This document shows positions 8,071 through 63,881 of a stretch of 64,000 nucleotides of DNA, in pieces; position 1 is the stretch's first letter; each line of letters opens with the position of its first letter. Made by a program: the position numbers and the translations under genes. Location of the stretch: NCBI RefSeq assembly GCF_000340965.1, contig NZ_ANAY01000016.1:1-64000 (forward strand). Reading direction: 5' to 3'. The notes beneath the pieces are model-generated. The model saw nothing but the letters and a program-made list of their open reading frames with translations. It did no database searches and was not told the DNA's origin. The DNA is from Nocardiopsis kunsanensis DSM 44524 (lineage in GTDB: Bacteria; Actinomycetota; Actinomycetes; Streptosporangiales; Streptosporangiaceae).

Positions 8071-8514
8071 TCAGGAGCGCTGTTCGACCGCGCGCCGCAG
8101 CGCGCTCATCCCGCGCACGAGCGCCGCGAGATCGTCGGGGTCGAGGGAGGCCAGCACGTCTGTGGAGGGGTCGGTCTCACCGAGGAGCTGGCGCTGGATC
8201 TCACCGGCCATCGGTGTGGCGACCAGGCGCGTGACGCGCCGGTCCTCACCGCACTCCTGACGGGCAAGGTAACCCTGGGCGACGAGTTTCTCCACACTCG
8301 CGGACACGGTCGGCGCGGAGACCTGTAGGGACAGGGCCAGCTCCCGTCCCGTGGTGGCGGCTCCCAGGGCCACCAGCAGAACGATCCTGAGTTGGTGGAG
8401 CGTGAGCTCCAGACCGAGGAAGGGTTCCAGGCGCCGGCCCGCGAGCAGGCGCGCGAGCGCGCGACGTTCATCCGAGTACTGCGCGATGAGCTGCTCACTC
8501 GTGACCCCGGGCAT
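8071..8514 (-). CDS. MarR family transcriptional regulator
   Basis: A 147-aa winged-helix regulator. The MarR core is visible as LTLHQLRIVLLVAL, the recognition helix region (SLQVSAPTVSASVEKLVAQGYL) and the wing with the ECGEDRRVTRL pattern. It is divergent from the Baeyer-Villiger monooxygenase with a nested palindrome between the two starts, the usual layout of a MarR repressor controlling itself and the adjacent catabolic enzyme, with a substrate or product as inducer. Regulation of the BVMO unit is inferred from position and the operator. Confidence 0.88.
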   Translation of the reverse strand: MPGVTSEQLIAQYSDERRALARLLAGRRLEPFLGLELTLHQLRIVLLVALGAATTGRELALSLQVSAPTVSASVEKLVAQGYLARQECGEDRRVTRLVATPMAGEIQRQLLGETDPSTDVLASLDPDDLAALVRGMSALRRAVEQRS

Positions 8515-59241: not shown

Positions 59242-59282
59242 CCCACCCATGCGCGGTCGGCACGGGCACGTACCCTCGAATC

Positions 59283-60185
59283 GTGACCGAAACGCTCCAC
59301 GCCGACGACCCGACGGCCACCGCCGAGCGCGTGCGCGCCATCCTCGGCGACGGTCCCGTACTCGCGCTGACCGGGGCGGGGGTGTCCACCGACTCCGGGA
59401 TCCCGGACTACCGCGGCCCCGGCTCCCCGCCACGCAACCCGATGACCTACCAACAGTTCGTGGGAGATGCCGCCTTCCGCCGCCACTACTGGGCCCGCAA
59501 CCATGTGGGTTGGCGGCACATGGAACGTACCGAGTGCAACGACGGGCACCGTGCGCTCGCGGACCTCGAGGCGGCCGGGTTCGTCTCGGCGGTGGTGACC
59601 CAGAACGTCGACACCCTGCACGAGGCCGCTGGCAGCCGCCGCGTCGTCGACCTGCACGGGCGCTACGACCGGGTGATCTGCCTCGGGTGCCGTGAGATCA
59701 CGGCGCGCAGCAGCCTCGACGTGCGGTTGGCGGAGCTGAACCCGGATTTCTCGGTGACGGTGGAGGACATCGAGCTCGCCCCGGACGCCGACGCGGCGTT
59801 GTCCTCCACCGAGGGTTTCCTGGTCGCTGACTGCACCGGGTGTGGGGGCATACTCAAGCCCGACATCGTCTATTTCGGGGAGAACGTGCCCAAGCCGCGG
59901 GTCGAGGAGGTCTACGCCCTGGTGGAGGAAGCAGCGGGGCTCCTGGTCGCGGGTTCGTCGTTGACGGTCTTCTCCGGGCGCCGTTTCGTCAAGCGGGCCG
60001 CCCAGCAGGGCAAGCCCGTGGTGATCCTGAACCGGGGCGCGACCAGGTGTGACGACCTGGCCGCGCTCACCGTCGACGCGGGATGTTCGCAGGTGCTGCG
60101 CGCTCTGGCGGGTTCTTACGCCGACCCCGCCTTGATGGAGGCGACCACGCCTCCGTCGACGAGGACGTCGGTGCCCGAGACGTAG
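59283..60185 (+). CDS. Sirtuin (Sir2-family NAD-dependent deacylase)
   Basis: A 300-aa class II-like sirtuin. NAD-binding GAGVSTDSGIPDYRG (31-45), TQNVDTLH, the catalytic His125 in VVDLHGRYDR, and two Cys pairs for zinc (CLGC at 133-136 and CTGCGG later). It removes acyl groups from protein lysines using NAD+. GTG 59283 lacks a ribosome binding site, but TACCCT lies 6 nt upstream (59271-59276), so it may be leaderless. Its last 70 nt overlap the convergent SDR gene, and the final 20 residues are probably non-conserved. Confidence 0.9.
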   Translation: MTETLHADDPTATAERVRAILGDGPVLALTGAGVSTDSGIPDYRGPGSPPRNPMTYQQFVGDAAFRRHYWARNHVGWRHMERTECNDGHRALADLEAAGFVSAVVTQNVDTLHEAAGSRRVVDLHGRYDRVICLGCREITARSSLDVRLAELNPDFSVTVEDIELAPDADAALSSTEGFLVADCTGCGGILKPDIVYFGENVPKPRVEEVYALVEEAAGLLVAGSSLTVFSGRRFVKRAAQQGKPVVILNRGATRCDDLAALTVDAGCSQVLRALAGSYADPALMEATTPPSTRTSVPET

Positions 60186-60937
60186 CCGGCTTCGGGCCCG
60201 AGCAGGAAGGCCACCACGGCGGCGACGTCGTCGGCGGTGCCCAGGCGCGGTACGGCGGCCCCGTCGACCATCGCGCGCGCCGGCCCCTGGGGGTCCTCGA
60301 GTTCAGGCCTGCTCATGCGGGTGGAGACGACGCCGGGGCTGACGGAGTTGAGGCGGGCCCCGCGCGCGCCCCACTTCAGGGCCTCGGCCTGCACCCGGAG
60401 TTGGTTGCCGCGCTTGGCGTACCCGTAGGCGGTGTGGCCTTCGGCGAGCCGGTCGGTGGAGGCGGAGGGCAGGTCGGCCAATTCCTCGGCGGGTGTGGTG
60501 GCCAGTTCCCTGGCTTCTCCGTCGGTGAGCTGCCCGGCGTAGAGGCTGCCGACCATGCTGGCCACGACGACCCCGGCGCCTCCGGGCGCGATGACGTCCC
60601 GGAAAGCTTCCAGGACCAGGGCGACGCCGACGAGGTCCACTGCGAGGACACGCTGTACCGAGCCCTGGTTGGGGGAGAGCCCGGCGGTGTGGACGATGCG
60701 GGTGACGGGGCCGAGTCCGGCGGCGGCGCGGGCGAGGGCGTCGACGGATTCGGGGGAGGCGACGTCGACGCCGTGGGGGGTGACTTCGTACCCTTCGCCG
60801 TGCAGGCGTGTGCGGGTCTCGGCGAGGATGCCTTCGTCGAGGTCGGCGAGGAGTACGTGGGAGCCTGAGCCGACCCTGCGGACCGTGGCCATCCCCATGT
60901 CCCCTGCACCGATGACGACCAGTACTTCCCGTGTCAT
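60116..60937 (-). CDS. Short-chain dehydrogenase/reductase
   Basis: A 273-aa SDR. The NAD(P) motif is IGAGDMGMATVRRVG, with an atypical G-A-G-D-M-G rather than TGxxxGxG; the active site reads SMVGSLYAG and YGYAKRGNQLRVQA (Tyr and Lys), and the C-terminus SGTDVLVDGGV is classical. The same unusual nucleotide loop occurs in the frameshifted SDR at 54855, so the two are paralogues or a duplication. ATG 60937 is at the start of the conserved fold. Substrate unknown; a cyclic alcohol is suggested only through the paralogue next to the BVMO. Confidence 0.87.
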   Translation of the reverse strand: MTREVLVVIGAGDMGMATVRRVGSGSHVLLADLDEGILAETRTRLHGEGYEVTPHGVDVASPESVDALARAAAGLGPVTRIVHTAGLSPNQGSVQRVLAVDLVGVALVLEAFRDVIAPGGAGVVVASMVGSLYAGQLTDGEARELATTPAEELADLPSASTDRLAEGHTAYGYAKRGNQLRVQAEALKWGARGARLNSVSPGVVSTRMSRPELEDPQGPARAMVDGAAVPRLGTADDVAAVVAFLLGPEAGYVSGTDVLVDGGVVASIKAGSA

Positions 60938-61030
60938 GTGGTTCTCCCCCTCGTGCCCATTTCGCCGTCCCGACCGATCCTATGCCTCATATCGGTCGGA
61001 CGAACGTGCACGGAAGACCCCCGTACCGGT

Positions 61031-61108: not shown

Positions 61109-61430
61109 TTCGGTACCGGACACGTATCGCGGGGCGAGCGTGGACCTGTCGGCACTCGAGCCCGACACCCCGGAACCCTTCGGTCGGGCCGTGATCGAAT
61201 CCGCCGGGCTCATCGCCGACGGGGCCGGCTCCCACTGACCGCCGGGGGCGGCACCGCGTGCATCGGACGTCCCCGAAGACCCGGCCGATGCTTCCGCAAC
61301 GAACGTGTGCATCCCCCGCTCACGGAAAAGGCGCGCGGGTGGGGACGGCACGGTCCAGGATGTTTCGGAGCGTCTGCTGGGGCAGTTCCTAGGGGTGGAG
61401 GACGAACTCGACACCATGGAGGCGGACGGG

Positions 61431-61793
61431 ATGAACGACAAGTCGGACGAGGGGTCCGGACGTGGGGACGGAGGCTCCCACATGTCCGGAGGCGAGCACA
61501 TGTCGGGCGGCGGCCACATGGCCGGGGGTTCCCACATGTCGGGAGGGGGGCAGATGTCCGGCAGCGGCCCTCTGTCCGGTGGTGCCGCCGAGGGTTCCGA
61601 CGGTGTGGTCCCGGCTTACGGCGGCTCCTCGGACGAGGGGGCTCCGCGGTCCCGGAATATCGACGCCCCCGAGGCCGGACCCGCGGAACCGAGGGCGGTC
61701 TCCGGTACGGGTTTCAAGGGCGTGTGGCCGATGCTCACGGTGCTGGTTGCGTTGGTGGCGGGTGTGGCCATCGGTTACGCCATCGGGGGATGA
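61431..61793 (+). CDS. Small membrane protein with His-Met hexapeptide repeats
   Basis: A 120-aa protein of no family I recognise. Residues 15-50 are six tandem hexapeptides: GSHMSG, GEHMSG, GGHMAG, GSHMSG, GGQMSG, SGPLSG. A Ser/Gly/Glu-rich spacer follows, and the C-terminus (about 97-120, GVWPMLTVLVALVAGVAIGY) is one transmembrane helix, so it is probably tail-anchored with the repeats on the cytoplasmic side. His and Met ligands repeated every six residues suggest copper, nickel or zinc binding. ATG 61431 has GGAGG 8 nt upstream; the frame is open back to GTG 61305. The coxE-like gene begins 7 nt after the stop, so they probably form a unit. Confidence 0.65.
   Translation: MNDKSDEGSGRGDGGSHMSGGEHMSGGGHMAGGSHMSGGGQMSGSGPLSGGAAEGSDGVVPAYGGSSDEGAPRSRNIDAPEAGPAEPRAVSGTGFKGVWPMLTVLVALVAGVAIGYAIGG
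61473..61580 (+). repeat. Six imperfect 18-bp tandem repeats encoding GxHMSG hexapeptides
   Basis: Each 18-nt unit encodes Gly-x-His-Met-Ser/Ala-Gly; the fifth has Gln for His and the sixth has Pro-Leu for His-Met, so the array degrades toward its 3' end. The unit core is CACATGTC. Copy number is likely to vary between strains. Confidence 0.85.
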
Positions 61794-61800
61794 GCGTTCC

Positions 61801-63044
61801 GTGCCCCTGCTCGCGGGTGTGGACCGGGCCGTCTTCGCCGCGGCATTGACCGGACGGCTCCGGGAACGCGGTGTGCGGGTCGACCTCTCCGCGGCCCAGT
61901 TCCTCTCCCGGGCTCTGGCCTCGCACACCCCGCGCACGACTGGGCGCCTGCACTGGAGCGCCCGTGTCTGCCTGGTGCGGCGCGTCGACGGGCTGCCCGC
62001 CTTCGACGCGGTCTTCGAGGAGGTCTTCGGCGACGCGGCCCCGTCCAGGAGCCCCGGCGGGCCCCGTCCTCGGTCCGTACCAGGCACCGTGCCCGGTCCG
62101 CGTCCGAGGGCGCGGGCCGTGGCACCACGGTCGCCCCTGGCACCGGCGAGGCAGGCGAGGGCCGGGCCGTGCGGGGGCGCGGCCGCGCGCCCCTGCCCTG
62201 GGCCACACCGGCCGCCCCGTCGGAGCCCTCGTCCCCGGCCCACGTGGCACTGTCGGCCACCGAGCGTGAGGCGTTGGCCGGCGAACCCTTCGAGACCCTG
62301 TCCGAGGACCAGGTGGCGCAGATCGGCGCGTGGCTCGCCGAGAGTCTGCCCCGCATGCCGCGGCGGCGGCCCCGGCGCCGGCGTCCCGGTCGCTGCGGGG
62401 ACCGTGTTGCCCTGCGTGCCACCCTCGCGCGGGCCCGGCGCACCGAGTGGGAACTCGTCCAGGAGGAGCGGGTCCGCCGGCCCAGGAGGCTCGTGGTGCT
62501 GTGCGACGTGAGCGAGTCGGTGCGCACGCAGTCCGCCGCCCGCATGCACCTCATGCGCGCACTCGTGCGCTCCTCCGCCCGGGCGGAGGCCTTCGCCTTC
62601 GCCACCCGCCTGACCCGTCTCACCCCGGTCCTGGCGCACAGCGATGTGGACGCGGCGTTGGAACGCGCCGGCGAGACCGTGGCCGACCGGTTCGGCGGGA
62701 CCCGGATCGCCGCGAGCGTGCACGAACTCCTCACCTCCCGCCACGGGGCGTCGGTGCGGGGCGCGGTCGTGCTCGTGCTCTCCGACGGCTGGGACAGCGG
62801 GTCCCCGGAGCGGATAGCCGCGGTCATGGCCCGGTTGCGCCGGCGCGCGCACCGGGTGGTGTGGGCCAACCCGCGTGCGGCGGCGCCGGGCTTCGAGCCC
62901 CGCGCCGCAGGTATGGCGGCGGCGCTGCCCCACTGCGACGAGTTCCTGCCCGCGCACAGTTTCGCCGCCCTGCGGGACGTGATCGCGGCGGTGGCCGACA
63001 CGGCCTCGCCGGGCCCGCGCGGGCGACGCGAGGCTTCCCGGTGA
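61801..63044 (+). pseudogene. CoxE-like VWA-domain protein with a frameshift
   Basis: From GTG 61801 the frame reads PLLAGVDRAVFAAALTGRLR through WSARVCLVRRVDGLPAF into a Pro/Arg-rich linker and then loses coding. The second part, from about 62170 to 63044, is in another frame and carries the VWA domain with the MIDAS motif VLCDVSESVR (DxSxS), FATRLTRLTP and VLSDGWDSGSP. One missing base between about 62080 and 62200 joins them into roughly 415 aa. CoxE proteins partner a MoxR/CoxD ATPase in metallo-enzyme maturation; no such ATPase is nearby. The linker is GC-repetitive, so a sequencing error is plausible. Confidence 0.78.
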
Positions 63045-63200: not shown

Positions 63201-63881
63201 TCACCCTCGAAGGTGTTCCCGACCGCAGAGCTCGACGTCGTGCCAGAACCGTGTCCAGGAGCTGTTGCTGCCCTGGACCGCACCCAGGTGTCTGCCGTCG
63301 ACGACGGCACGAAAGACGGCGGGCGCATCGGATTCGGTGTACCGACGCCCCTTGGCCTTGGAGACCTCACGCATGAGGAGGCCCTTGGGGTCGGCAAAAC
63401 GACCGGTGTCCCTGCCCACGTACTTGGTGGGGAGCTTCCACGTCTTCACCACTGTGGGCAGCGCCTCCGGAAAGAGCAGCATCCACGCTTCCATCTCGGC
63501 GACCGCCAGGACATAGTGTCCGTTGTCCGTCTGATGATGGATCTCCTGCTCCACCCGCCGGTGGGCTTCCACGTAGGCCGGACCGTCGACGGCATCGAAG
63601 TCCTCGTGCACGTAGAGACAAGCCACTCGGGTTCCCGGCCCCTGTTTCTCAGCGACACCCTTGGCCTTGTTGATGATCGAGCGGACCCTCTTGGCGAGGT
63701 TCTCCCCTGTGGCCTTGTGGAGGCGGACGGTATCGCGGATCTGCACGATACTGCCGCGCAGAGCAGGATGTTTCTCCTCAAGGAGGGTCTTCAGACTTTC
63801 CCGGTCGTTGCTGTCCTCACCCGCGATCACCACGACGGAGCGGTCTCGGCCCTTACGTCGTGATTGGTGCCGACCACTCAC
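63201..63881 (-). CDS. TOPRIM/DUF4276-like protein, probable partner of an AAA ATPase
   Basis: A 226-aa protein, no signal peptide. A TOPRIM-like pattern is visible: Glu22 in VVVIAGEDSNDRE, an acidic DxD-type cluster in LYVHEDFDAVDG (Asp94, Asp96, Asp99), then VLAVAEMEAWML (Glu129/131), as in DUF4276/OLD-type nucleases. The GTG at 63881 overlaps the stop of an upstream AAA ATPase by GTGA, the usual arrangement of ATPase-TOPRIM defence pairs. A basic N-terminus (MSGRHQSRRKGRDR) may bind nucleic acid. The VEGxxE motif of classical DUF4276 is replaced by AGEDSNDR, so it may be a divergent branch. Confidence 0.6.
   Translation of the reverse strand: MSGRHQSRRKGRDRSVVVIAGEDSNDRESLKTLLEEKHPALRGSIVQIRDTVRLHKATGENLAKRVRSIINKAKGVAEKQGPGTRVACLYVHEDFDAVDGPAYVEAHRRVEQEIHHQTDNGHYVLAVAEMEAWMLLFPEALPTVVKTWKLPTKYVGRDTGRFADPKGLLMREVSKAKGRRYTESDAPAVFRAVVDGRHLGAVQGSNSSWTRFWHDVELCGREHLRG

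Follow-up and report, generated by a model that had tools for sequence, protein, structure and literature searches.

CoxG proteins (PF06240) have been described from several angles. One report presents CoxG as a menaquinone-binding membrane protein with a proposed role in handing electrons over to the quinone pool (PMC13240472, citing Kropp et al. 2025). For O. carboxidovorans, a study of coxG states that mutants continue to use CO at a slower rate, and it assigns CoxG the role of recruiting CO dehydrogenase (CODH) to the membrane (PMC4240915). CoxG-like proteins are also described as anchoring an archaeal dehydrogenase to the membrane (PMC11962113). A solved structure, PDB 8uds, is by its title M. 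smegmatis CoxG minus its lipid-anchoring C-terminus.

Here we compare these proteins with a small ORF (61431..61793, + strand) in a window of 64,000 nucleotides, i.e. positions 1 to 64,000 of contig NZ_ANAY01000016.1 of Nocardiopsis kunsanensis DSM 44524 (GCF_000340965.1). The ORF encodes a linker, a His/Met-rich array, a second linker and a membrane helix, and the first-pass annotation had taken it for an unrecognised tail-anchored protein. In our reading, to which we give a probability of roughly 0.93, it is the 3′ remnant of a coxG gene whose operon, encoding a form I molybdenum-copper CO dehydrogenase, has mostly been lost in this lineage, and the tail is most likely vestigial. A puzzling small ORF would thereby become a clear case of operon loss.

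The tail ORF and its relation to CoxG

The array is made up of five hexapeptide units, SHMSGG, EHMSGG, GHMAGG, SHMSGG and GQMSGS (61476..61565, +), which TRF reports as an 18-bp repeat at 61469-61561 with 5.2 copies and 70% matches. Directly 3′ of it lies a GPLSGG block (61566..61583, +) that reads GPLS or GDLS in relatives possessing the array. Six tandem hexapeptides had been counted initially; five units stand, as does the content of four His and five Met over array and block, and the sixth, GPLSGG, is a non-HM sequence. A hydrophobic stretch at the C-terminus (61722..61790, +) is predicted to form a membrane anchor, both from the alignment and from helix 275-295 of the modelled CoxG of the relative G008, in agreement with the spacer and single C-terminal helix first proposed.

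The ORF is nested within the longest open frame of the region, which encodes 162 amino acids from a GTG at 61305 (61305..61793, +) and can be aligned with the C-terminal region of G008 CoxG. Its upstream portion contains what is left of the final SRPBCC helix of CoxG (VQDVSERLLGQF...EADG; 61323..61430, +), recognised by DNA homology and corresponding to helix 123-155 of the G008 model. In five loci the DNA homology to coxG begins at 61323; in a sixth, L040, it begins at 61294.

Searching the window's own genome and 40 relatives with the tail returned matches in four of the 41 genomes, its own included. The match to the coxG tail of G008 (E 8.5e-29, 60% identity) shows descent from coxG: it covers the C-terminal region of a protein of 296 residues, which opens with an SRPBCC domain (Pfam COXG, PF06240; 80.8 bits, cut-off 22.2) and whose gene sits between those of a MoxR-type ATPase and CoxE. 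Upstream of coxG, the same contig encodes an AAA/MoxR-type ATPase, an XdhC-family protein and a CO-dehydrogenase-type flavoprotein. The XdhC-family protein (L041 5347-6408) has a weak TRASH-like match at its C-terminus (E 0.00094, 19.7 bits, cut-off 27), possibly a metal site. By sequence, the best solved relative of G008 CoxG is 8uds_D (E 3.2e-47), and in Foldseek its model (mean pLDDT 70.6, 13 sequences) superimposes on 8uds with a TM score of 0.93 by target length. The model is fairly confident up to about residue 150, falls to a pLDDT of about 50 or less over the array and linker, and ends in the helix at 275-295.

With homologues that are full CoxG proteins, a stand-alone novel family of tail-anchored proteins can be ruled out: the supposedly unrecognised protein is the C-terminal end of CoxG, a subunit already known and with 8uds as a solved relative. 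The window ORF itself gave no COXG (PF06240) domain in a Pfam profile search, and a COXG search of the whole genome yielded a single match, on contig C14, and none at the window locus. The C14 match (G000:C14:6481-6888) is another CoxG, complete and with a tail rich in Pro and Ala, located beside a CoxL-like gene carrying PYRGVSR; the two probably belong to another molybdenum hydroxylase system.

Seven nucleotides after the stop of the tail ORF, a CoxE-like gene begins with a GTG. Frame comparison places its N-terminal part, about the first 80 codons, in the frame of 61801 (61801..62044, +); its main VWA part continues in another frame (62045..63044, +, boundary approximate), where the VWA_CoxE domain (PF05762) scores 183.9 bits against a cut-off of 26.4 and where we find DVSES, which we take to be a MIDAS-like motif. 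The CoxE-like VWA gene of the first-pass annotation is thus upheld in position and family and corrected in one respect, being split over two frames that change near 62045. A sequencing error could account for this one change of frame. Farther downstream, an ORF at 63201-63881 (−) has a sub-threshold match to DUF4276 (15.9 bits, cut-off 30.2).

cox loci in the genus

With full-length G008 CoxG as the query, 18 of 40 genomes of the genus match, the window's own included. CoxL carries the motif AYACSFR, presumably a marker of form I enzymes, at eight of the 13 loci scanned (G055, G045, G053, G008, G047, G023, G013 and G014). Both coxG and coxE were found at all eight, always with coxE 3′ of coxG, and the expected linkage to coxE in relatives is confirmed to that extent.

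An intact CoxG with the array, beside form I CoxL and coxE, is present in G008, G055, G053, G045 and G047, the last with two units only; in these five, the order is SRPBCC/PF06240 domain, array, linker and membrane helix. G013, G014 and G023 possess form I CoxL, coxG and coxE and have no array, which is therefore not a general requirement for CODH. Where the array would be, the CoxG of G013 (L044 6970-8928, −) has a linker of more than 200 residues rich in Ala, Ser, Thr and Gly, and the linkers of G014 and G023 are of other kinds. Three further loci are partial: G016 has the array, lacks the SRPBCC part and is followed by no coxE over the remaining 1.7 kb of its contig; G022 has the array on a contig that begins inside the gene, with an altered anchor; and in G003 an anchor-like remnant is left, containing a stop and lacking the array.

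Probable loss of the operon at the window locus

Upstream of the tail lie a SIR2-family gene (59277..60185, +) and an SDR gene (60116..60937, −), a flank shared with the cox locus of G013: window 59246-60989 aligns at 87% with L044 16496-14744. Homology to the cox genes of L044 resumes at window 61323, opposite position 8128, and extends piecewise as far as 62999 within coxE. Compared with G013, about 6.3 kb are missing from the window, from coxM to the 5′ part of coxG.

At the junction we find a C-terminal fragment of an IclR-like gene (61133..61238, +), which, like its counterpart in G001, we take to be an IclR-type regulator. The surrounding stretch, 61130-61245, is 69% identical in DNA to L046 9808-9693 of G001, where an apparently complete copy of the IclR-like gene lies upstream of a coxG-like gene. 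For 61176-61238 we considered an SRPBCC origin and dropped it, the IclR-like fragment being the better explanation; TBLASTX rows in the junction comparison are mostly noise.

The form I CoxL motif AYxCSFR is absent from the window locus, and a search of the genome found no close form I CoxL: the best of its eight CoxL matches is 37% identical and, the only one of the eight in which the motif was read, carries PYRGVSR.

An rpoB DNA tree pairs the window genome (G000) with G013 at 100/100. The SIR2 DNA tree, built from pieces of 13 of 17 loci (G001, G003, G010 and G023 dropped), has the form (G016,(G013,(G000,G006))); in it alone is G016 placed, rpoB having not been found in that genome. In G006, the window's nearest neighbour by SIR2, the site is without any cox match. 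Together, these genomes form a series, from the operon in G013 through its tail end in the window to no trace at the site in G006. G013, intact, stands between G016 and the window, and so under vertical descent these two would have lost the operon separately. Identical deletion points in the two genomes, which at first looked alike, were rejected, as the alignment suggests indel-ridden remains further upstream; we claim no common breakpoint.

The reading of the tail as a coxG relic of a lost CO-oxidation operon thus draws on homology, the layout in intact relatives, synteny, the gap of about 6.3 kb, the split coxE and the want of a close CoxL.

Decay, use and a possible internal start

How far has the remnant decayed? 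Its tail frame is open and both the array and the hydrophobic helix are retained, which counts against a relic. Branch-wise N/S, based on small counts throughout, is 0.40 in the window for the main part of CoxE (G013, 0.29; other genomes, 0.23-0.47), 0.51 versus 0.59 in G013 for its first part and 0.12 versus 0.45 in G013 for SIR2; the array has 0.48 (6 N, 4 S) versus 0.19 in G016, and the membrane helix about 0.93 (G016, 0.55; two intact genes, 0.55 and 0.28). Between the window and G013, pairwise dN/dS is 0.24 for the main part of CoxE, 0.20 for SIR2 and 0.18 for SDR. With the tail frame open, the CoxE N/S slightly raised and the pairwise dN/dS close to that of the flanks, these values would fit a decay that is recent, ongoing or partial, and they decide neither for nor against a function.

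Alternatively, the tail may never have ceased to work. According to this explanation, an internal start before the array gives rise to a functional, tail-only form of CoxG in this clade, which is all that the window and G016 retain. A GGAGG lies 8 nt upstream of the ATG at 61431 (61418..61422, +), with the same motif and spacing in G000, G008, G055, G053, G047, G045 and G014, against a background in which GGAGG precedes 22 of 658 internal ATGs at 4-11 nt. G000 and G016, whose SRPBCC parts would under vertical descent have been lost separately, both retain an open tail frame. However, GGAGG precedes just four of 35 mechanically predicted ATG starts and is therefore no strong mark of starts here, the motif overlaps conserved codons, and the species are related. 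Of the ten genomes with this part of coxG, seven show the pairing; the other three are G016, where the motif reads GGAAGG, and G013 and G023, which lack a Met at the position. Counted over genomes with a Met there, the pairing is found in seven of eight. The raised N/S of the membrane helix in the window and the absence of coxE after the coxG tail in G016 also speak against a working product, and we consider this explanation unlikely. The GGAGG-ATG pair before the array hints at an internal start and does not prove one; judged from sequence, a tail-only product is possible. A bolder version—that coxG is a dual-product gene in this genus, that the five His-Met units of its short form hold copper for or from the Mo-Cu CODH, and that the window's lineage kept this product when the enzyme had been lost—strikes us as highly improbable.

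Distribution and conservation of the His/Met array

The codon pattern HM.GG.HM occurs at 24 places in eight of 40 genomes of the genus, compared with five places for a reversed-pattern control, an excess over chance. All but one of these 24 places are in coxG, the remaining one being G055:C5:17153-17176, so that homologues with conserved repeats do exist, as the first-pass annotation had required. Across 345 genomes of the order, the longer HM.GG.HM.GG is found in eight, seven of which belong to the genus. The eighth, G743, has it in an ORF that is not coxG and lies beside a sequence we presume to be urocanase-like. Every other coxG of the 345 genomes is free of the exact motif, and in a sample of the phylum the motif was seen in one of 396 genomes, the window's own. 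Elsewhere in the order, outside the genus, 21 CoxG loci were inspected and none had an HM repeat, with the tail taken as the last 150 residues in five rows and L058 out of frame.

Seven genomes have five-unit arrays. Of their 35 units, 32 retain the His and 33 the Met. Same-numbered units are more alike across species (DNA identity 0.78) than differently numbered ones (0.70), a difference reached by none of 5000 permutations. Over the 21 pairs dN/dS is 0.06 to 0.58 (0.11-0.31 for pairs with the window), and for the six pairs among four intact genes it is 0.17-0.55 in the array versus 0.25-0.33 in the SRPBCC domain, suggesting that the array is about as constrained as that domain. Low dN/dS, retention of His and Met and unit-by-unit orthology lead us to regard the array, on sequence grounds, as old and stable.

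On these data we also reject an expanding repeat that erodes at its 3′ end. The units are orthologous position by position in all seven genomes, which lends no support to expansion; the Q-M fifth unit is common to the window, G055 and G022, and the GPLS block is common to relatives. What looked like erosion is thus ancestral and shared. The limited literature surveyed, seen in part, contained no His/Met array in CoxG, and the one new point here, a small, genuine novelty, is that this genus has a conserved His/Met repeat in its CoxG stalk.

What the stalk might do

In intact relatives, the SRPBCC cup would bind menaquinone, relay electrons from CODH to the respiratory chain, as is proposed for CoxG, and tether CODH, and the linker with its five x-H-M-[SAG]-G-G units, disordered in the model, would be a stalk leading to the membrane helix and tethering the quinone-carrying cup to the membrane. 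Close to the docked enzyme, the His and Met residues of the stalk might offer a soft metal a weak binding site. With cup and enzyme gone, the tail in the window would most likely be vestigial, possibly still translated.

Why the stalk should be rich in His and Met is a separate question. It may simply be an inert, flexible spacer whose composition drifted within the lineage, which we hold to be a tentative option with somewhat less than even odds. CoxG tails vary from 87 to 376 residues, measured from the last SRPBCC helix, and in make-up, in other genera too, and the array is missing from G013 and G014 and reduced to two units in G047. Drift is harder to reconcile with the preserved unit order and with dN/dS values in the array that resemble those of the SRPBCC domain.

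A copper or soft-metal site on CoxG, serving the Mo-Cu cluster or shielding docked CODH, is a doubtful proposal in our estimation, compatible with the other readings and sketched already in the first-pass annotation. Array-bearing coxG genes adjoin CoxL with AYACSFR, and His and Met are retained in nearly all units. According to PMC4240915, O. carboxidovorans CODH made without CoxG is short of copper and fairly high in zinc; its authors, however, state that CoxG takes no part in cluster assembly. The form I motif in G013, G014 and G023, which are devoid of the array, also argues against such a site. We see the stalk as a candidate metal site. The conserved His/Met stalk element, belonging as it does to a Mo-Cu enzyme, makes the role of CoxG beside copper directly testable.

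Comparison with known systems

SilE and PcoE are His/Met-rich proteins that bind copper or silver. The CoxG array resembles them in its His/Met-rich segments and differs in its spacing, with HM recurring every six residues.

The closest system is CoxG itself (PF06240; M. smegmatis CoxG, PDB 8uds). Relatives of the window gene share its SRPBCC fold, linker, C-terminal anchor and cox operon setting; the window retains the last helix, linker and anchor and is without the SRPBCC cup. Unlike the 21 CoxG loci from other genera, one clade of the genus has the His/Met hexapeptide array in the linker. In comparison with the cox locus of G008, the window lacks the MoxR-type gene that precedes coxG. Its neighbouring gene resembles those for CoxE VWA proteins (PF05762) in its adjacency to coxG, its VWA_CoxE domain and its DxSxS motif, and differs from them in its broken reading frame.
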